From Epinephelus fuscoguttatus (taxonomy: Eukaryota; Chordata; Actinopteri; Perciformes; Serranidae), in assembly GCF_011397635.1 (NCBI RefSeq), contig NC_064756.1, forward strand, positions 3,986,922 through 4,050,921: a stretch of DNA of 64,000 bases, read 5' to 3'. Within the stretch, counting starts at the first letter, position 1, and the number at the start of each line of letters is the position of its first letter. Under the pieces are notes generated by a model. It was not told where the DNA came from, made no database searches, and saw only the letters and a list, made by a program, of their open reading frames with translations. The translations under genes were made by a program, and so were the position numbers. Shown piece after piece: positions 5,675-26,700 of this stretch.

Positions 5675-5695
5675 ATGCAGAACTCCATGAAATGA
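5675..5695 (+). promoter_or_regulatory. six-codon uORF overlapping the eif4g1 start codon
   Basis: An ATG at 5675, in weak context, opens a frame encoding MQNSMK. Its TGA (5693-5695) overlaps the main ATG (5692-5694) in an ATGA arrangement. A second ATG of the same uORF is at 5687. Ribosomes initiating here would terminate on the main start, a layout compatible with leaky scanning or reinitiation control. Confidence 0.6.
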
Positions 5696-5766
5696 ATAAA
5701 GCACCACAGCCTATAACAGGACCCCCCTCCAACCCCCACCCTGCCCCCTCCCCTGGCCTTTCACAG
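5692..5766 (+). CDS. eif4g1: eif4g1 coding exon 1 (codons 1-25)
   Basis: The exon begins after the acceptor TCAG at 5644; coding starts at ATG 5692. It encodes [15 protein letters not shown] and on to PSPGLSQ, closely matching the human EIF4G1 N-terminus. The donor is CAG|GTAAGC, phase 0. The frame is open upstream to the acceptor, but no upstream in-frame ATG is present. Confidence 0.95.
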
Positions 5767-11700: not shown

Positions 11701-14700
11701 GCTTGGTGTCATTTTGCTGGCTACGGCGGTTAGCTCCCAGGCCAGCAGCAGAATGTCAATGAGGAGGCTCTGAATGAACCAGCATTAGCTGCTTTATCTC
11801 TTCTGGCAGGCAGGGCCAATATGTTTCCAGTTGGAGTCTAGCCATAGATTCATGGACAAACTATGAGCCTAGCTATTAGGCCGGACAGACCAGCTCCACT
11901 TGGTCCAAGAGATAAAATCATACAGGGGCATGGGGGATGGTTTTTATGTTGGAGGTTTCAGAAAGGTAACTAATAATTTCTTTATTTGCCTCTCTTTTCT
12001 CTTCTACCTGTTTCCATCCATTTTTTCTGTCCTCTCACTCACTGTCCATCCTCACCTTTCTTCGGTCTGTCATCACCTCCCCACTCCTGCTTCTCTCCCT
12101 CCACATTTCTCCTTCATCTCCGGCCATGGTTTGCTCCCCCTGCCTCTTCTCTAGCCCTATTACGCCAACAGGGCCAGCCTGCCTCCCAGCAGTGGGCCTC
12201 GGGGCGTCCCTCCCAGCAGCGGCCCGCGGCCTGTGACGCCCACCCACGTCTACCAGCCGGGCCCTGGCTCCCAAATGATGATGATCCCCGGGCAACAATT
12301 GCCCTTCCCCAGCTCACCACAGGGACCTGCCTACTTCATACCGGGACAGGTAGGGGGCACCGACCAGGGAGCGTTCAAGTAGTGATGCTGCCAAATGTTC
12401 TTTTCTTATCAGAGCCAGATGGTGTATGGGCGGCTAACACAATACACCCACCAAATTTTTTCATTTATCACTTTTGTAATATGTATAGCTTTTGTTGTGT
12501 TGTTCTTGTTTGGATAAATTCTGTGAACATTCTATCCCCAAAATATTATTATTATTATTATTATTATTATCATTATCATCATCATTACCTTTTACACAGA
12601 AGGAGTTTTGTAGGTTGCAAAACGTGAGGCACACCGCACTGCCTTTTATTTTTAAATTGAATGCCACTTGTGAAAAAACGCTTGCCGCGTCTTTTTATTG
12701 TTGCCAGGCAACCACCCCCTCACCTCCTTACCCTAACCTTCCTGTGTAACCAATCTAGCGTTGATGTATTTATTTCTTATTTAATTTATTTCACAGTTAT
12801 TAGTAGCTAGTACCTAAAATGTTGAGGCAGAAGGTACTTGCTGTAGCTGTGGTTGAGGGTGAGAGGCTGTCAGCAGATAAACAGAGATCTGTGAGGGTAC
12901 ATGAGACCCTAACAAAGAGGCTGGATCATGGGGAGTACCACCAGTTGGTCCAGGAGCTTCTCCTCCATCATGGACGTCTCAAGTACTGCACTTCACGCCT
13001 GTGTTTTTTAATGAGATCCTGGTAACTGCGGTTTGTAAAGTCGTATAGCTCTGGGTATCCAGCAACCACTACCACCAGTTTCTCCTCCATTGTTTACCAA
13101 CTGTAAACTTGTTGTCATGACCACCACAGAAGCCCCGCCTCTCAAATCCTCTGATTAGACAATGGGGAAAAAAGCAGAGATAACGTGGGGCACTTTGTTG
13201 CTCTTAGTTGAAGTTTTTTCAACTCGAGGAGTTCAGAGTGCTCTGGCAGAAACTCCAGGCAACTAGAGTGCGTAGCAACGAAAAAACAGTGAGCAAAAAG
13301 CTTCATTCTCTTTAAAAACAATTACAAAAAGCCGCCTCCAGCTGCCAAAACGCTTTTTGTGTGATCAGGGCCTAAAGCTGTTTATTGTGAAGAGCAGGCA
13401 AAATATTTTGTTGTGCTCCTATGATTTATATTGCTGTTATAATTGTATCTAATATTAATGTCCTGTCTTCCTCGCTCTCTCTTCTTTGTTTCCATAGTAC
13501 CGGTCGGCAACCTACGTGGCCACGCCCCAGCAATACCCAGTCCCAGCAGGCACCCCAGGCTTCTACCCAGGCACCAGCCCCGCTGAATATGGTACTTATG
13601 GTAAGAGGCTCTACCTGGGGCCTCACCTGAGCCACTCACACACAGAGACACTCAGTAGGGTTTTTAACTGACACATGAGCCATCGCTGACCCAAGAACTT
13701 TCAATCTTAGGCTACATTCATACTTATACAGTTTAGTTTGACAATGCACAACTACTTTTAATTTCACACCCAGCATCCACACTAAAACTCCTAAAACAGA
13801 GACTTTGTTTTAGTTTGAAAACCCAGGTCTGCATTTTAGTCTGCACAGGCAAAAAAGGACACTTTTAAAAATGATGCAGACACCTATGTTTGTTTCCCCA
13901 TTTGGTCTTATCAGTCACAACATGTCAAGTGACAACATTATAGCTAGGTCTACATATCTTTTGTGATTTTATACTTCTTGTGTGGGTACTCCTTTCCCAT
14001 CTCAGTGGCTTTGTCCTGTGATGGATAATGTTCTCAGCTGGTACTGCTCTAATATTGCCGTATTTGCTTTGTAGTGACTCCCAATCTGTTTTACGCCACC
14101 TTGAGCGCAATACCTATGTTCATTAACACTTCCACCTTGCCTTTGGTCCAAGCAAAGACATCTCTGCTCTTGCCTTTGTCATCTACGCAGTATTTTCTGT
14201 AACTAAGCAACCAACCGTAGAGTAGACAAACTGCTTCCTGTCTGTCGCACATGCCCAGTGTACTTGAATGGTCATGTGATAATGTGTCGGGCGTTATAGC
14301 AAGCTAACAAAGGTATGCAAATATAAAAATCTACTAAAATCATCAGAAGTGGTCACTAATAACTGGCACATCCCATCTATAAAGACAGTTGTTTTTAATT
14401 ATTTTACTTCTCATCTCCACCTTTCTGCAGCCGCTGTAATCCTGATATTTTTCAGGTTGTTTGTGACGCTCTCAGTTGTTTGGAGATCTGGGCTTTTCCC
14501 ATCTGCTGCATCACTTTGACCTTCACCTCAGCTTTTGATACAGAGCCTGTCTGTTTGTTTTGTATTTCTCCTCATGGCAGTGTTTGCCTTTCTTTGATTA
14601 ATTACAGACTTACTGTATTGCTCTTAATTATGGCCATCTTTATCTCAAGTCAAACCCAAGACATCTCATCTGTGCCTCCGGCACTTCTTGTTGCTGAGGA

Positions 14701-17700
14701 CTAGTTCATATGAAACGAGAAGTAATAGCTGAGTCAGAGGCAGGAACAAAACGTATTGTACCTGCTCAGAATCAACATCCCATCATGAACACACAGAGCT
14801 GCTCTGAAGAAGATGAGGTAGCAGAATGTTTTCATGTAATTTGAGAACCTACGAGCACCAAAATTTCTCCAGAGCAGTAGTTCCAACTGGTCCAGCCACA
14901 GGGTTTAGATTGCTTCTTAGTCATTAGTGCAAGGTCCACAAAGTTTAATACACTCAGCATCATACTTGTATTTGGCCATGTTGTCAAGCTAGTTAGCTGT
15001 CTGTTAGTGTTACACGGTATACCGGTACTAAAATAGTACCGTGGTACCAGAGTATTCCAAATGGTACTATACTGTATTTGGAAAATACCGGTACTTTGAA
15101 ATTGATTCAATTCATTAATTTAGTTAATTTATTTTACTCATTTATGCACACAAACACCTTTCTTGTTCCTATTGGAGCACAGATTGCACAAGTGGTGTGT
15201 ATGACAACACCTGTATCAACATTCGCAGCTGGCGCATGTGAAAAAAGACGAGAAAGTCTGCCTCTCAAAGGGAGACAACACGAGACAACACAAGCTTGGT
15301 GGAATATTTGAGTTACCAAACCATGACGTCCGTACCGAGATACTTACCGAACCATGATTTTTTTTTGGTATCATTACACCCCTATTATTTATTGTTCTAA
15401 AGGTTTGTATCCAAAAGGACTTTTCCTTAGGAAAAGTACAGAAGAGTATTGAAAAGTATCGAAATTCATATTGGTATTGGTACCGAAACAAAGATTTTGG
15501 TATTGTGACAACACTACTGTCTGTTAGTCACTTATTCTACAGCAGGAGACAGCACTTCAAAATAAAAGCCCTGTGCTGGAAATTCACTGCACTCCAAAAA
15601 TTAAGTGTTTTTTTTAATTTTTATTTATTTATTTATTTTTTTACAGATTTGACATGTTTGCGAGTCACTTGCGGTCCATTCAATGTGGACCTTTGACCCA
15701 CTTTTGCACCACGACCCACCACTTGAGAACCACTGCTCTTGAGTGTCAGGTGTGCAATACAGAGTATATGAGGTTTATGATACAAAGACATAATGTTACA
15801 TAGCATATTTGCCTTCTTCTCGTCATAGTTTGTACTCTGTGTCTTGGTGCTTAATATGTGGTCCAAACCATGAGAGAAACACAAAAAACCCTGGGTACAT
15901 TCTCTCCCCCTGGGTAACCCTCAGTTTTTCCCCAACTCTTTGTACTTTGCAGCCATTTGACAGTCTTTATAGTGGGGTGAGGAAGAGTCGTACAAATGTA
16001 CATACTTGCGGACTTCTTCAATCAACCTCTCTCCATTTGGTCCATGTTTATGGGAAGATAAGGAGCAGTTGGAAATGCGTGGGAGGATATGTGTGATGCT
16101 ACCAAGCTGACCAATCAAAGTTGTTGGGGTCTGCGTCACCAGGATGTGTAGTTACATTTCTGGGGAGGTGCATGTCAGGCCACGGTGTAGGTTATGGCGT
16201 AGGCTATGCATCGACACAGAGACTACACCATATGTACGGCGTCAATTCAATGCAGTATTATAAATCCTGCTTAATAGACCAGCTAACTTAGAGGTGGGAA
16301 CTGAAGTATTGTACCTGCTCAGAATCAACATCCCATCATGCACACAGAGCTGCTCTGCTCTGAAGAAGATGAAGTAGCAGAATCTGTTTTTTGTACAAGG
16401 TTTTCATGTAAGTTCAGAACTAAAGAGCATAAAAGTTCTGTGTATTTGCAGCCATTTTGATAGTCTTCGTAGGGGGTGAGTGTCAGGTGTGCAACACAGA
16501 GCATATGTCTGTATGCTGATAAAATGCAGCTGTGAGATATGTTGTTTTGTCGCTGAGGGGTGTGGCTGCATTCTGGAAAATGTTAAAAAATGCTGACTGT
16601 CATAGTCAAAACAGGTTGAGCCAAATGGGCACTCAGGAAAAATGAAAGCCTGTCAGCATAAATAACAACTGCACTGAGCATTACAGATCAATATTTTGTT
16701 TGTAACTGTATGAGAGTGTTTTTCTATAATACACTCAAAGAATGTGACATGAATATTTCATTTTTTTCTTTGTCTTTATTCATTCCAAACATGCTCTGTC
16801 ATCACATTACTTCACATCTATTCCTAAGTTCAGTTCAGCACTACCGATGTTTGCTGTTGATCCCATGTGTTGCCACACCCTCTAGAGGTGGCTGGGTGTC
16901 ATTACATCACAGGAAGTGATGATGCCCTGAAAACAAACTTGCTGACCCCCCCTCCAGCAGGCATCTGAACTATGTGTTGTCTTTGTTTAAACTGTAGCTC
17001 ATCAGCAATAGAATGCGCTGGCCTGAATACAGGACTGTAAAAACACAATTCTTCCTATTAGGCTTTGCATGTCATGCTCTTTGCACGACAGTGTATGTGC
17101 ACTGTATGATGTGCATGGCACTTGAACAATGCCTCTGCACACTCTGCACCTGCGTATGCATCAGTGTGAACATTGACAGCCTTTTTAGATTCAGTGTAAG
17201 TCTTGAGATGAAAATGCTTTTAGTTTTAGTCACATTTTCGTCATTTTTATCCATAGTATTAGTCGACGAAAATTCCTGACATTTTAGTCAAATTTTAGTC
17301 AATATGTTCTATATGAAATTTTATTTTTAAACTTATCCAGTGAGGCTAATTCATGTATCAGAAATAAGGTGACAGGTTGTATAAAAATTTTATTCAGACC
17401 ATTTTGTTTTTTTCTACAGCTACAAATAATTTCACACTCTTAGACTGTCATTTCTCCAGCAGTGTTTGACAGGTTTAAGGGCTGATTTATGAGCACGCAC
17501 TTACTGATCATCATTTGAAAAACTCAACATCTCTCTATTTATGCTCTCAAAAACTTTGACAGCCCAAATAACTAATGTGAGACAACCAGGATTTGTCCCG
17601 AGGTTCACTGTAAACTCCAACTTATCCATCTGACTGTTAAGAAGCAGAAAAATAACTTGATTAAAGCCTGAATTCTTTCTTAATGTGCATCATGTTAGTC

Positions 17701-20700
17701 TGGAGGTTTAAGCTCGTGTCCTCTCACAGAGTTGGTGATTCAAACTCACTTGTAACACATCCCTGGGTACTTCCAACATTTGGGTTAAGTCTGTCCTCTC
17801 TAGATAACACATGAAGGAACCCAGGTGTTGTGAAAGAGTGATTGATTACCCCTGATAGCATTTGCAGCTTTTTCCCAAGGGCAGAGTTGTTGATAGTTCA
17901 GAAATCCTTTTACCCATACTCGGCCTACCAGCTTTCCTCAGACCCCTTCATAATGTTTTCAGATGGGGCAGTGGGTTTGTGTGAAATGCAACCGGCAAAA
18001 ATAGGTTGATTTGAACATGTAATCAAACTCTGTGTATTGTAGCTGAAAATGACCCTGGATCAGTTTATAAAGCCCTCCAAATATAAGCTATTGCCTTGAA
18101 GGGGATTTTCTCTATGTGTTGATCAGTGACCGTGGAACAGTGCCTGAACTTGAAGCCTTTTTAAGCAGTTTCAGGATGTCTGATGGTCTCGAATGGTTTG
18201 ATCAGATCTGTGAGCCTGAGTTGACCTGAAACAGTTTTTAAGTCAGCTAATTTTACTTTCTTGTGGCTGCACAAGAAATTTGACCTGATTAGTTTTTGCA
18301 TCCATTTCATATGCATGAAGTGAGCATCTCTCACAGGCCACACTGGAGTGACATTTCATCCAGCAATGTCAAAAGGTTCTTTTTCAAGCATACAAGCATG
18401 TATGTGGATCTGCACCAGGTCAAGAGGATGCAATACATTTTTAAGTTACAGATGATATATGATAGAAGTCCATTCAATGTGATGTGGAGGATTCAGGTTT
18501 TGGCCACAGGCATTATGTTTTCGGGTTGTCCGTAGGTCTGTCCGTACACCCGTCCAAACCAGGTGGATTTGATATCTCAAGAACTCCTCAGGGGAATTTC
18601 TTCAAATTTGGCGTAATCGTGCACTTGGACTCGATAAACTGATTCGATTTTGGTGGTCAGAGGTCAAAGTTCAAGGTCTGTGTGACCTCATCGGTCTCAT
18701 TCTTGCGAACGTGCTATCTCAAAAACACCTTGAGGGAATTTCTTTTCTATTTGGCACAAATGTCCACTTGGACCCAACAAAGAACTTATTGAATTTCGTT
18801 GGTCAAAGGTCAAAGTCAGTGTGACCTTACAACCATCTCATTCTCGTGAACGTGATATCTCAAGAACACCTTAAGGGAATGTCTTTAAACGTCACACATC
18901 CACTTGCACTGAAGAATAAACTAATTAGAATTTTGTGGTCGAAAGTCAAAGGTCAGTGTGACCTCACAAAATATGTTTTTGGCCATAACTCAAGAATTCA
19001 TACGACACGTATGACAAACTTGACCGGTGCACGGAGACATGCAGTCGTGTGGCGGTAATTCTAGTTTGCAAGAATCGTACAAGTTCATGACATTGTACAA
19101 TTTTTAGGTTTTATCCACATGGTGGAATTCACTTACTGTAAGTTTGGGGTTCAGTATCTTGCCCACAGGTACTACGATATGCTGACGGGGGGATCGAAGC
19201 ACTGATCTTCCAACGAATGGATGACTCACTGTACTTCCTGAGCTACAGCCACCACTTGGTTGCCAAACATCCAATCTGAACAATGCTGTCCTGAGGGGTA
19301 CTCAGTCCCGCTACATTTTTTTAAAAAATTCATTTTCCATAGCCGCTCATCCTGTTAGGGGTCACGGAGCACTGCAGCCTATCTCAACTGACATTGGGTG
19401 AGAGGCAGGGTTCACCCTGGACAGGTCGCCAGACTATCACAGGGCTGACACATAGAGACAGACAACCATTCACACTCACATTCACACCTACGGATTACTA
19501 TGGATTATGGGAGGAAGCTGGAGCACCTGGAGGAAACCCACACTGAGGAGATGGGGACATGGGGAGAACATGCAGACTCTGCATAGAAGGGCTCCCCCAC
19601 CCTGGGGTTCGAATCAGTAACCCTCTTGCTGTGAGGCGACAGTGCTAACCACCGTTTTTGTGTTTTGTTTGTTTTTTTAGTATTTTGATATGTATTTTTT
19701 AATATGTGCTGCGGACACTTCTGGTTTTGTACTTTTGACTAAAACTAGACATGCTTGGCATTAATGTTAATTCCAGAAAAGTTGATTTCTCTAAAATGTA
19801 TTTTTTGTGAATTTTCGTGTTGTTCGTGACGGTGCGACTGCCAGGCTTGGTCCTTGCATGGATTTCTATTTGATGTTCAGATAAGTTACGCTCTTCACAA
19901 CAGTGGGCTGCTGGTGGTATGAGAGAGCTGCGAGCTGCTAGATATGAGTATGACTGCACAGGACATAATGTCCCATGTGTTTGTGTTGGAGGGTCTGTGT
20001 CACATCGGTCATTCTGCCAGTCACATGGCATGTCGTGACAGGAGGCTGGCACATGACCCTAAATAACTGATCATGTGACAGGGAGATATGGCTCTCAAAC
20101 TGTGGTCTCCTATGGACTTGACCACTATTTTTGCTTTGAAAGTGTGCAGTTGTTGTTGGCTGTTTCCACCATGTTACACAGATGAGAGAGTAACACAGAT
20201 ATACTGTATGAAATGATTTGGCTTTTTGCCTTCAGGACCTGCAGTGCCCACTGTAAAGTTCTGCTAACTGCGTAGTAACAATCCCAGAATATCATTCCAA
20301 CTCCCCCCTCCGGTTCTCTGAGTGGTGCAGTCTCTCTGACCATTGAGTCCTTTTCTAGCAGTCAGGTAAAAGCACACACACACACTGTGCTGACGGAGTA
20401 TGGCGACTATTTTTAAGACTCCCACCCCCCTTAGTTGAGTGATTAGCTTAACTCTTCCCATATACTCACAGCCCACCCCCTTTGTAGTAGGTTGTGATGC
20501 CAGTGTGAATCAGATCTCTTATTCAGGGTGGAGGGATAGAGGACTCTTCAGGCAGATCAGATTGGCTCTGAATGACACAACTGAATAGTTCAGCTTGCCT
20601 GCCGGTACACTGCAGAGGGGGTAAAGGGAGGGAGGGAAGAGGGAAGGGGGGAGGAAGGTGAAAAAAAGTGAAAGGAAGGGAGGAATCAGGAAGGTCAGAG

Positions 20701-23700
20701 GGAGGAGCATAACGGAGACACGCTGGAAGAGGGAGGGCTAAGCATTAAAAGAAGTCATTCTGAGAGGGCACCTGTAGAGAGGACGGGAAGAAGTTAGAGA
20801 GGGGGTTTGAAGAGAAACCCCCTCTCCTTTTTCTCTCCATACGCAGTTTTACAGTCAGCAGGCATTCAGCATGGGGAATCGAGGGTCTCAAGAGCAGCAG
20901 GACTCTGAGGGTAGGTGTCGTCTAGACAGTGCGTCTCTTTGCAGCCCCCCCATCTCCTATTGCTCTCCCAATCTCCTGCACTTTGTGAGTCATATCTCAA
21001 GCCTCTTATTTACAGTGTTGGGATGCTGTCCAAGAAGAGTCTCCTTCTGCCTTCTGGCTTTCTGGATTTGAGCATACTCCTATTCTCCCTCTCTCTGTCC
21101 TTCTGGCTCTCTCTGTCTGTCTTCCCTCCCTTTCCCTCCAGCGCGCTCTCTCCCCCAGCCGGTGTGGGGTTTTGACTATATTTAGGCTGTGCTGCTCCTG
21201 GTCAACAATGCAGACTCAGTAATGTGAGTTAGACTGAAATGCGCGCAGAGGGGGAGAGAGGCCGAGCAGGAGCTACCGTCGGGCTGTGAGAGAGGCCTCT
21301 GCAATCTGAGGATTTTTTTTTTTTTTTTGCCCTGGGCCTTTGAAAGTGGGCTACAACTGGTTCTGAACTGTAGCTGAGGCCAGTTACAAGGCCAGGTAAT
21401 ATCTCTGAGTGGGTGGATGTCTTGTTGACATTATTGACCGCATAGGCTAATAAGTTCTTTGAGCCTTTGGAAGCTTTGATTTAGTTTTTTTTCTTGGTCA
21501 TGTTGGCAGCAGAGTTCTTCACAAGTTAGTGAACATGAGAATGATCCATTGCCTCAAGTAATAAGAGACACCGCTGCAGGGCAGGGCAGAGGGAGAAGCT
21601 GCTGTGTCATGGTCGGAGGGCCTACCTGTGGTGCGCCCCAGGTGCCATGTCTGCTTCTGTTCATTGTTGCCGTCAGATATAACACGTAGAGAGATTTTGA
21701 GATGGCACAAAAACACAGAGTCAGTGGAAACAGACAGGTTTGAGGCGGTGATGCCTCTTCAAGTGGTGCCAAGTTTATCATGAGTGAGGACACGTTGATA
21801 GATGCAGCTTGAAAGCATCTTGAGAAGTATTGCTCCCTCTGCAGCAATGTTTGGAGACAGCAGTAAGAAAAGGGCTTGGTGGAAATGAAGCAGTCTGATT
21901 TAGTGGTATTTCTTTTTTCATCTTTAAGTGCAGTCACCTGATACTTGATTTCAGTCACCTGTTGCTCAGATTGCATGGAAACATGGGCTGCAAAACACAA
22001 GAGTAGAGCTGTAATGATTGGACGATAAAATTAATCTGCAACTATTTTCAGGTCATCAAAAGTGAGGGTGTATATATTTATGTACCGGACTGTTGGTTGG
22101 ATAAAACAAATACTTTGACGAAGTCCTGGGGCCTCTGAGAAATTCTGTTAAGTATTTTTTTCTCATAATTTGACATATAAACACATCAGGATAATAGTCT
22201 GCAGATTAACGGATAATAGACATGATGGCAGTGTTGTCATGATACTGGAATTTCTTACTTTGGTATAATACCTTGGAAACTATTGATATTCAATACCATG
22301 TTTGATACCATGGAGGGAAACTGACTTAGAGGGCTTAAAATGTAAAGTTTTTATTAAAAAATAAACTTAACAAGGTGATAGCACGACATCTTTTCTTTTC
22401 TTATGTAGTAACTGTGCTCAACAGAATGACTGTAATTAACATTAACAGTAAGAGAGAGCATGAAAGCACAGCTGGTAGTAGTCTATCAAAACTGTGGAAA
22501 ATGAGTATTGAACCCATTTCAAATATACAAAATGGATATGCATTGATAAATGTCTATTTTTGACAACCCTAATGGTAGTTTCAGCCCTTCCCATATGGTC
22601 GGTCTTGAAACTTGGAGCGACATCACTTTTCTTGTGCTGCTTTCAGACACTTTTCATAACTATTTAAACCACTGGGACCTGAGCAAGTCGGTTAGATTTC
22701 TTTAAAGAAAGGGCAATCAGCAATTTGGCATAACATGTCCCCGAAACTGCCAGAAATTATTAAAAGGTGACAAAAAAATACCTGAAAATTAACTAAAAGA
22801 GAGAGGGAGAGATAATTATTAGAAAATATATTAAAAAGAAAACTGAAATTATATTAATGATTATTATAAACCTTTGTAACTTTTTTTTTTTTTACCAAAA
22901 TGTTGCTGATATTTGAGTCATTTCTCATTAAGCCTTCTTTCCATGTATGTACAAGACAGCCAGTTTGCTCAGGTTTCAAATTATTAAATGAAGCAAGACA
23001 AAAATTCAGCTCATATCTCATGATACTTTGTGTTAATACAAGGCCTCATTTTGATGGAATGCTTTGGCTGTATGGCTCAGCCAGGCATTTTTATAACCAT
23101 AAAAGTAAACAACGTGCTGGCATGGTTCGTGGTATTTAAATCTTTGAACCTCTGAGCAAAATGGTGCGATTTCTTTCAGAAACATGGGGAAAAGGGCAAT
23201 GAGCAACTTGGTGAAAAATGTCAAAAATTGCAACCAAAAAAAAAAAAAAAAATTGAATTTTTTTTTAAAATGAGGGAAAAACTATAAACTATATTTACAT
23301 CTATTATTACTTTAACAATTATGTTACAACTTTTAAGCACTCTTTCCAGGTAATTTCCTTTTTTGTTTGTTTTTTACTTTATGTTTTTTTCTTAAAATGT
23401 TCTTATTTTAATTTTACTCTGTTTTACTAATTTCTTGCCAATTTTTTGGGTCATTTCTTCTTTCGATGCTCATTGCCTTCTTCCCATGTTTTTAAAAGAA
23501 ATCAAGCCAATTTGCTCAGGTTTCAAATGGTTTATTATATTATTCACTAATCTAATCGATGACATGGTGTGATTGTTCTTACAGAGTTTAAATAATCAAT
23601 ATTTGTCCTTCTGCAGTCCCCAAGCTATTAATAATGTATTATACACTTATTTATCTGTAGATTCACTCATTAATCACAGCTCTGTTCTTTAAGATTACAC

Positions 23701-26700
23701 TCTCCATTTTTGACAGATTGTTGTGGCATTAACATTGAAGTGCTGCTGTGATAGATTTCAAAACACAAGATGTCTCTACAGTGTCCACAGGAACATTGTC
23801 AGGACACTAAAGCTCAAACATAATCATTGTTCATAAGTTTAGTCGAAGCATGTTCACAGAGACTGTAAATCACTCTGTGCTTAAATATTTGAAGGATGCC
23901 TAAAGTGTAACACATCCTCAATAGGCACTGACAGAAGTACTCAGTTACCTCACTGTAAAGACAGAAAGCTGCAGCTGTTGCACTGCAAATCATCAACAAA
24001 TCAAACCTTCATGTTTTAGATGCACATTTAAGTAGCCTAAAAGAACATTAACAATGTAGACTGTAAACAGTAGCTACGTGTTGTTAAGCCAGTGTGTGTG
24101 TGTCCTGTGTACAACCTGGCTGATGTGTTTGTGTCAAGTTATGGCTGTAGGATTAAGTCAGTATGTGTTGGTTTACATTCTTCTCTCTGTCTGATCCACA
24201 GCAGGGGCCTACTACCCCGCCCAGCCTCAGTTCACCCCCTCGGTGCAGGCGGCACCCGTCATTATGAACCCAGCCCCTCAACAGCAGCAACCACCACCTC
24301 AGCCTCCACAGCACATCCACACCAAGCGCGAACGGAAACAGGTACGTAGTGTCCTGCGACACAAAACATCTTACACTTTGAGAATGGATATCTAGTTCAG
24401 TTCTAGTTTTCATTTCACCCACTTACGATGTACTAATACTTTCATAGCAGAATGAACCACCAGTAAATGGAGAGGCTTTTTTTTATCTCATTAAACATGG
24501 TGGAAACCATAATAGGAAAATAACACAGACTTAACTGGTCGCCTAAAATGGAAACTTGTTATCAGGCATGTTTGGACAAGATCTGTTTATCAGTGCAGGT
24601 CAGGAACTTTCCCAATTATTTTGTGTTAATTCCATTTCTAAACATCATATGTGTGTTTTCTGCTTTGGAGAAAATTCCAGCTCCAAACAGCCACTGTGAT
24701 AAACTCAAGGTTCCTCTGATAATGTCGGACTTATCTACTCAGACATCGGCATGACATCTCGCTGATACTGCAGACTAAAAGCCAAACAGTGTTTCTGGTT
24801 CTTGAAAGATAGAAGGGGGTTTGATCCCTGCTGTGTTCTGTGTTTTGTTTTAATGCAGCAACCTTATCTGTTTGCTGCAACGTGTCATGCACAGTCACAT
24901 GCAGCAGACATGTTCATCCAGGTGCACACAACAGTCATCTGTAAAATTAACACTGAGTGAAGTCAGTGAGGAAAAGGGACATACTGTACATTTAGGCAGG
25001 GTGTGTCATAAAGTAGCCTATTTCCTCTTAACACAGCTTTGCCAACTCACCTTTGTGTTAATCAATACACAGTTGAATTTCTCTCTAATGCCTCCTGAAG
25101 CTTTATTCGACAGTGAATAAATTAAAATATAAATTCTGCTGGTACAGAACAAAAAACTGTCACCAGGTATTTTTGTTTTTTTGTTAGTTCCTTTTTATAT
25201 CTAAGTGAAATATCTTATCTTTCAGTTTCCACCTGAGAACAAAGATCTAAAGGGGCACGTGACTGCAGCAAGTCTCTTATATGGGCCATACACATGTCGC
25301 GTTTTGTGCACCCTCACATTAATTGTTTTCAATGTAGACGCAAAGGTTGGGATCACTCAGGTCTCCACGATACTTAAGTTATGAAACAATATTCTTGCAA
25401 TTTTAAATATGTTGCGCTGCTGTATGCTGAGGATTGCGATGATCTATATTGGGATTTATTACCTTTTTTCAACTGTAAATTATGTCCCCAAAAGAAAACA
25501 TTGTCAACATCTGTTTTGTCTAATACTTGACATTGTGTGACGATATGATATTGCCTTACAAAAATATAGATGCTATGCTGTATTGTTTTTTTTTTCTCCC
25601 ACCACTAGTGGACGCACGGCAAGTGCACTGAAAAACCAGAGCAACTCTTCTGCTGAGTGCCTGATTTCAGGGCATGAAGGTTGCACCCTGAGAAAAACAA
25701 AGTATAACTTTTGGAAGGCAGCAGCGTGCACCATGTCATGTGATGAGGAACAACCAATCACAGCCAACAGATATCTTTCCCGTCTTCAGTAAATATCAGT
25801 CTGTGATAGATATGTATGAGAAGTTGATGATTTTAATGCAGGGCTGCCCGGGGCTTTACATCTGTCTCACGGACGATATTTTTGGCCCAATACACACTTG
25901 CATAACAACACCTGGAACGAGATCAATTCTGCACTCAGGATTTCTGGTAAATAGGCTATGATACAGTGCAGGTTATGGTCGCTTAGCAGCCTCAGATGCA
26001 ACCTGCCTTTGCGCCCTTGAAAGTTGGCTTAGAGTAGGCACAAGAGCAGCGCCCACCTTGGCAGTTAAAGATGCGGCATGTTTACGGCCTCTTACAAGAT
26101 TGCAAAACCAACTTTGTGTGAGGGGAAAATCTCACTAAGGTAAATAATTGGACTTTCAGAGGCATGATGTTATAGTTTGGCTTCAGATCCTGTCTGTTTT
26201 AAGCTTTATGATCTGTGTCGAGTGAATTTTTGCATACATTAAAAATGTAATTGAGCTCTCAATAATACAAACCTGTCTGCTTCTGTTTTAGCTTTACGTT
26301 GGCATAATGCTCAGCTAGTTAACTAACCATATGCTGATAAACTTCACCGCTGTATCAGCCAATATATCATGGGACAGGTATCAGCTGTACTTCCAAAACT
26401 GCACTGGTTCAGATTTTTGATTTTTAGATTTGAGTCATCAAGCACCAAACTGCTGTGCTAAACTCAGATTTGAAAAGGTCTTTTGGGAGCAAACCTTCTG
26501 TCACTGGCTCCACTGTAGAAAGTTGAAGGCATTTTCTTTGCCCTGTGATTTTTGCACGACACGCAGCGTTCAAAGTGGCAAGGGAAGACTAAGAATTCCC
26601 CCTGGAGAGGATGTGTTTTGTCATCTCAGGGGAACCCCACCAATTATGCAAATTGAAGTCTCTTTACAGGTCTTTGGGAGCTTTTCTGCTGTATTTGTGA

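Follow-up and report, generated by a model that had tools for sequence, protein, structure and literature searches.

In cap-dependent translation, eIF4G is the scaffold protein. Forms of a protein that differ only at the N terminus can arise from alternative first exons, and in ABL1 type 1b the myristoylated form is supplied in this way. The human EIF4G1 gene uses three promoters (alpha, beta, and gamma), first-exon splicing, and several start sites, and the human eIF4GI isoforms a–f differ in N-terminal length (PMC12324280 and PMC4141738). Human isoform b has its N terminus near the PABP site (residues 165–210) and co-precipitates almost no PABPC1 (PMC4141738). Here, we analyzed a 64,000-nucleotide stretch of DNA from Epinephelus fuscoguttatus (the window), in which tblastn with Epinephelus protein queries places eif4g1 on the + strand. 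Our reading of this locus is that a genuine alternative exon, transcribed from a start in intron 6, would give rise to a shortened eIF4G1 that is possibly myristoylated. From comparisons of sequences, we assign this full reading a probability of roughly 0.55; its individual parts are graded separately below.

Candidate first coding exon in intron 6 and its carriers

The gene model built in the window shares 99.6% identity with P0008, a cluster that bears the name Epinephelus fuscoguttatus, over 1578 columns, and 98.3% with P0001, from Epinephelus coioides, over 1598 columns. Three exon boundaries of the model deviate from P0001: the start of exon 10 lies 9 nt too far upstream, the end of exon 16 is 3 nt short, and exon 21 begins 6 nt downstream of the P0001 form. 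These three offsets lie outside the tested stretch and alter a few residues. The candidate exon is located in the 10.6-kb intron 6, where positions 20871–20910 read ATGGGGAATCGAGGGTCTCAAGAGCAGCAGGACTCTGAGG, followed by GTAGGT. It comprises an ATG with A at -3 and G at +4, 12 further codons, and one G, and it exits in phase 1, as exon 6 does, into exon 7 at 24202. When the exon is joined to exon 7, the frame remains open and reaches KRERKQ. An in-frame stop lies at 20808 and the closest ATG upstream of the exon is at 20572; any RNA whose 5' end falls between about 20575 and 20870 would therefore have the ATG at 20871 as its first AUG. The ATG, the 13 codons, the GT donor at 20911, the phase, and the bases at -3 and +4 are all present as an earlier note on this DNA had claimed. 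The donor, which that note called strong, is of ordinary strength for eif4g1: it ranks 13th of the 25 donors in the gene model by a position weight matrix, in a list where the exon 16 donor is off by 3 nt. The features of the locus are collected in Table 1.

Table 1. Positions of the exons, splice signals, and upstream elements discussed in the text, numbered from the first letter of the window
Feature	Position	Strand	Basis
Canonical first coding exon of eif4g1	5692..5766	+	tblastn with Epinephelus proteins
Canonical exon 6, replaced by the alternative exon as partner of exon 7	13498..13600	+	gene model
Hairpin preceding the ATG: perfect 12-bp stem, 6-nt loop	20797..20826	+	stem-loop search
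Run of 21 pyrimidines; may act as a TCT/TOP-type start (C at 20827) or as the polypyrimidine tract for the acceptor at 20847	20818..20838	+	sequence; interpretation inferred
5' segment of a putative 64-nt internal exon (acceptor AG 20845–20846), otherwise 5'UTR	20847..20870	+	8.1 bits
Candidate alternative first coding exon of eif4g1 (ATG, 13 codons, one base)	20871..20910	+	sequence; matching N terminus in P0001, P0002, P0003
Codons Gly2 to Ser6, candidate N-myristoylation determinant	20874..20888	+	sequence
5' splice site GTAGGT of the alternative exon	20911..20916	+	rank 13/25 donors
eif4g1 exon 7, with a tandem CAGCAG acceptor; predicted splice partner of the alternative exon	24202..24341	+	gene model

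The chance expectation for such a frame was estimated in the interval 12351–24201, exon 6 included, by counting ATG-to-donor frames of 30–300 nt that end in phase 1 and have a donor score at least equal to that of the candidate. Four frames, the candidate counted, were observed, and 300 simulated first-order Markov sequences contained a mean of 1.69 each. A Gly2 codon was found in one frame against 0.07 expected, and the combination of Gly2, Ser or Thr at position 6, and a purine at -3 in one frame against 0.007 expected; both expectations exaggerate the surprise, since the frame conditions were set after inspection of the sequence. Across the entire + strand of the window, 14 such ATG-to-donor frames occur, and the candidate is the sole one with Gly2.

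Used as a protein query, the N-terminal 70 residues of the predicted isoform gave 950 proteins with E values up to 10 among 2451 candidates. Among the best 120 of these, which were fetched, the top three span the whole query including the alternative exon: eIF4G1 of E. coioides (P0001), with 13 of the 13 residues of the alternative start, and the proteins of Nematolebias whitei (P0002) and Lates calcarifer (P0003, isoform X6), each with 12 of 13. These species represent Eupercaria, Ovalentaria, and Carangaria, respectively, which are separate percomorph groups. The same three proteins were the only ones returned, among 218 candidates, by a bait weighted toward the N terminus, and they were the sole carriers among the best 120 of 1179 proteins matching a bait of the N terminus plus the PABP stretch; no fourth carrier was found among the matches listed in these two further searches. 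The 70-residue query carried all three model offsets, and the two later baits only those of exons 16 and 21. A motif search identified the exon in 3 of the 162 fetched proteins, giving at least three carriers in a database clustered at 90% identity, whose clusters may hide isoforms; the small share of carriers counts against our reading in that other fish may lack the exon. An MG start occurs in 4 of the 162; the fourth such protein, P0084 (MGFFRN...), has an unrelated 5' extension and was rejected as a carrier. Forms of the exon from zebrafish, salmon, gar, or tetrapods were not found among the matches listed, where a diverged exon could escape the search.

The three carriers have the same 13-residue start layout as the window isoform and the same junction to exon 7. 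They differ from it at residue 12, the only variable position among the four sequences (S in the window and E. coioides, T in N. whitei, and P in Lates), and in the absence of one Ala at the Lates junction. Gly2, Asn3, Arg4, Gly5, Ser6, and Gln7 are invariant. The junction reads AGAYY in the E. coioides and N. whitei proteins and GAYY in Lates X6, and the second AG of the tandem CAGCAG acceptor (24200–24207) would give the GAYYPAQ form. The record names of the three proteins mention nothing on lipidation.

To place this likeness on a scale, the window, Lates, and N. whitei were compared in 13-residue stretches. Twelve of the 13 residues of the alternative exon are common to all three, while stretches from the disordered exons 9–10 share a mean of 6.5 residues, and 4.3% of them reach 12 (27% against Lates alone and 7% against N. 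whitei alone). Exons 7–8 are 94% identical, and across the whole protein 43% of the stretches reach 12 in the three-way comparison. Judged by these residues, the alternative exon evolves as constrained coding sequence, unlike an intron, and its conservation is normal for eIF4G1 and not exceptional. The protein records place the exon in at least three percomorph groups, and it is already in the databases as part of annotated proteins. Because three annotated relatives carry this start, a chance pattern was dropped as an explanation, and 20871–20910 very probably serves eif4g1 as a genuine alternative first coding exon. The central proposal of the earlier note, an alternative first exon leading to a shortened eIF4G1, is thus strongly supported by the matching N terminus of annotated proteins in three species. 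Stops or indels in related fish, which that note took as a sign against its proposal, were looked for at the protein level in the three species, and the exon is intact, with 12 or 13 of its 13 residues.

Several other eIF4G1 variants appeared in the protein set. P0139 (Lates calcarifer X7) and P0142 (Epinephelus coioides) are annotated eIF4G1 proteins beginning at a Met inside exon 7 (MNPAPQQQ...); this start suggests further RNAs without the upstream coding exons. An arginine/glycine-rich insert at the exon 6/7 junction (for example, ERRGGGRENGRLSLHGAPLTSQRYP) is present in P0126, P0128, P0134, P0136, P0151, P0153, and P0156–P0162, from catfish, characin, knifefish, and salmonid species, and is apparently a cassette exon. 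No likeness by eye was found between the alternative exon and the insert that other fish carry at this junction (RENGRLSLHGAPLTSQRYP and similar). The top matches to the bait of N terminus plus PABP stretch, P0121 and P0122, are without the alternative exon. P0122, a predicted eIF4G1-like protein of Gouania willdenowi, has the PABP-site region in tandem at least three times within its first 500 residues; P0121, a predicted protein of Chanos chanos, joins RING/B-box (TRIM-like) domains to the MIF4G part of eIF4G and may be a fused gene model.

Predicted protein product and possible N-terminal lipidation

Splicing of the alternative exon to exon 7 would produce an eIF4G1 of about 1590 residues without the canonical N terminus. 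The part lost corresponds to residues 1–163 in the numbering of P0008 or 1–149 in that of P0011, and not to residues 1–170 as had been claimed. The proposed retention of the downstream binding domains agrees with the Pfam results: PF02854, PF02847, PF02020, and PF21140 score above cut-off on P0001 and P0003, and these two proteins retain the eIF4E-binding domain, MIF4G, MA3, and W2. The domains are assigned to the window isoform through these proteins, the window translation being 98.3% identical to P0001. The sequence of the PABP-binding stretch, which begins at residue 55 of the isoform, is intact. Since 54 residues remain ahead of KRERK, PABP binding is probably kept.

For lipidation, Met1 would be removed, and Gly2 would then meet N-myristoyltransferase (NMT) in the context G-N-R-G-S6-Q7. 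The NMT preference is given as G2-X-X-X-(C/S/T)6-K7 (PMC10381334) and the motif as GXXXSK (PMC12623983), and both papers treat Lys at position 7 as a preference and not a requirement. Gly2 and Ser6 match this preference in the window and in all three carriers, Gly5 is among the favored residues, and Asn3 is uncharged, as favored. In all four sequences, position 7 is Gln in place of the preferred Lys. Scored with a matrix built from 44 known substrates, the N-terminal peptide reaches 0.74 bits, a value attained by 5.8% of random Met-Gly starts, and the control peptide GNRGMEDL, with Met at position 6, scores -6.45 bits. With each substrate left out in turn, the peptide falls at the 27th percentile of the 44, meaning that 27% score no better. 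A simple pattern fits the peptide, and it also fits 37 of the 44 known substrates and 18.6% of random Met-Gly starts. The myristoylation context described in the earlier note holds in its Gly2 and Ser6, and it is weakened by the residue at position 7 and by the rank among the 44 substrates. On this balance, we give even odds to the isoform being myristoylated.

The region that follows bears on what a lipid could do. The net charge over residues 2–20 is -2, acidic residues come next, and the first basic patch of the isoform is at residue 55. Cys is absent from the first 100 residues, and no second membrane signal was found near Gly2. Given the acidic followers and the lack of a nearby Cys, myristate alone would bind membrane weakly and reversibly; it could hold part of eIF4F at membranes. 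That the isoform serves as a functional membrane-bound eIF4G1 is a tentative proposal, with about one chance in three by our estimate from the sequence.

The competing account that survives best accepts the isoform and denies the lipid: Gly2 would be N-acetylated or left free after Met1 removal, and the exon would only start a shorter, separately controlled eIF4G1. We consider this a serious contender, though at somewhat less than even odds. The Gln at position 7, the middling substrate fit, the acidic followers, and the lack of a second membrane signal all speak for it, as do the shortened human eIF4G1 proteins that arise from internal promoters and start sites (PMC12324280 and PMC4141738). 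It explains less well why residues 2–7 are invariant in four sequences, with change only at residue 12, as a mere start needs less.

Proposed origin of the RNA

Under our preferred reading, transcription would start inside intron 6, close upstream of 20871 and perhaps within the pyrimidine run, giving a short 5'UTR with 20871 as the first AUG downstream. Because the alternative exon opens the annotated proteins, intron 6 is most simply read as containing a promoter, and one close upstream of the exon is likely. The pyrimidine run is the longest in intron 6, with a 20-nt run at 21120 nearly equal to it. It contains YYCTTTYY, a pattern of TCT/TOP starts that occurs 12 times across intron 6; transcription from the C of 20827 would leave a 5'UTR of 44 nt. 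The hairpin overlaps the run, and the segment 20770–20910 has a folding energy of -49.8 kcal/mol (z -2.22), with 5 of 200 shuffles folding equally well. Since a stem of this kind in the 5'UTR should hinder scanning, a start just downstream of the hairpin would be favored. A CpG-rich promoter finds no support, with an observed/expected ratio of only 0.30–0.46 at the supposed promoter, and a search of Rfam on 13600–24400 gave 0 matches at the gathering level. Positions 21176–21185, some 265 nt beyond the 3' end of the alternative exon, read CTATATTTAG, which resembles a MEF2 site; the stretch holding it (21101–21300) is slightly CpG-richer, with an observed/expected ratio of 0.48.

The exon might instead not be first in its transcript but form the 3' part of a 64-nt exon (20847–20910), lying behind an untranslated upstream exon or acting as a poison exon after exon 6. 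Its acceptor at 20847, with 8.1 bits and the 21-nt pyrimidine run, falls in the range of the 24 real acceptors (0.7–14.3 bits, each left out in turn). It ranks 15th of the 679 AGs in 13701–24190, and the 14 other AGs that score higher count against it. Inserted after exon 6, the 64-nt exon would shift the frame and bring in a stop inside the exon, as a poison exon does. A pure poison exon is, however, at odds with the MGN frame, which is not the main frame and yet is kept as a protein start in three other species. The kept frame leaves the version with an untranslated upstream exon unaffected, in which the protein would be unchanged. We judge a 64-nt exon of either type unlikely, at about one chance in five. 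Least probable by far is an annotation artefact in which gene-prediction software picked an open frame ahead of exon 7 in each species: the support does consist of protein records, and the Lates and N. whitei names are NCBI-style and perhaps from one pipeline, but independent chance choice would not make three groups agree at 12 of 13 residues, and the Lates form is one of several isoforms (X1 and X3–X7 by name, X1 being that of Lates japonicus).

Comparison with described isoforms

We know of no translation initiation factor that is myristoylated by way of an alternative first exon, and to our knowledge no lipid-anchored form of eIF4G has been described. The likeness to ABL1 type 1b lies in a Met-Gly start brought by an alternative first exon, which in the fish gene carries a putative lipid site. 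A description of the isoform was not found among the matches listed in the literature searched (eIF4G1/eIF4GI/eIF4GII isoforms, myristoylation, zebrafish, Epinephelus), in which subscription journals are barely covered. The accessible portions of PMC5005323, PMC13219423, PMC5308895, and PMC10179197 contain nothing on the MGN isoform, and PMC11088998, which matched eIF4G together with myristoylated, concerns reporter constructs in its accessible portion.

Like the human eIF4GI isoforms a–f, the predicted fish isoform would come from the same gene as the longer forms and add to a set of N termini of varied length. Unlike them, it would gain 13 new residues with Met-Gly and Ser6 from a private exon, and no such exon is seen in the accessible portions of PMC12324280 and PMC4141738. 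Compared with human isoform b, the fish isoform keeps 54 residues ahead of KRERK. An internal promoter that gives a shorter eIF4G1 is of a known kind; the novelty lies in a private exon that may carry a lipid site. With Gly2 and Ser6 retained by this exon in three fish groups, the isoform offers a direct test case for membrane-tethered initiation. Even without the lipid, the region upstream of the PABP site would be swappable for a conserved private N terminus, which goes beyond mere trimming.
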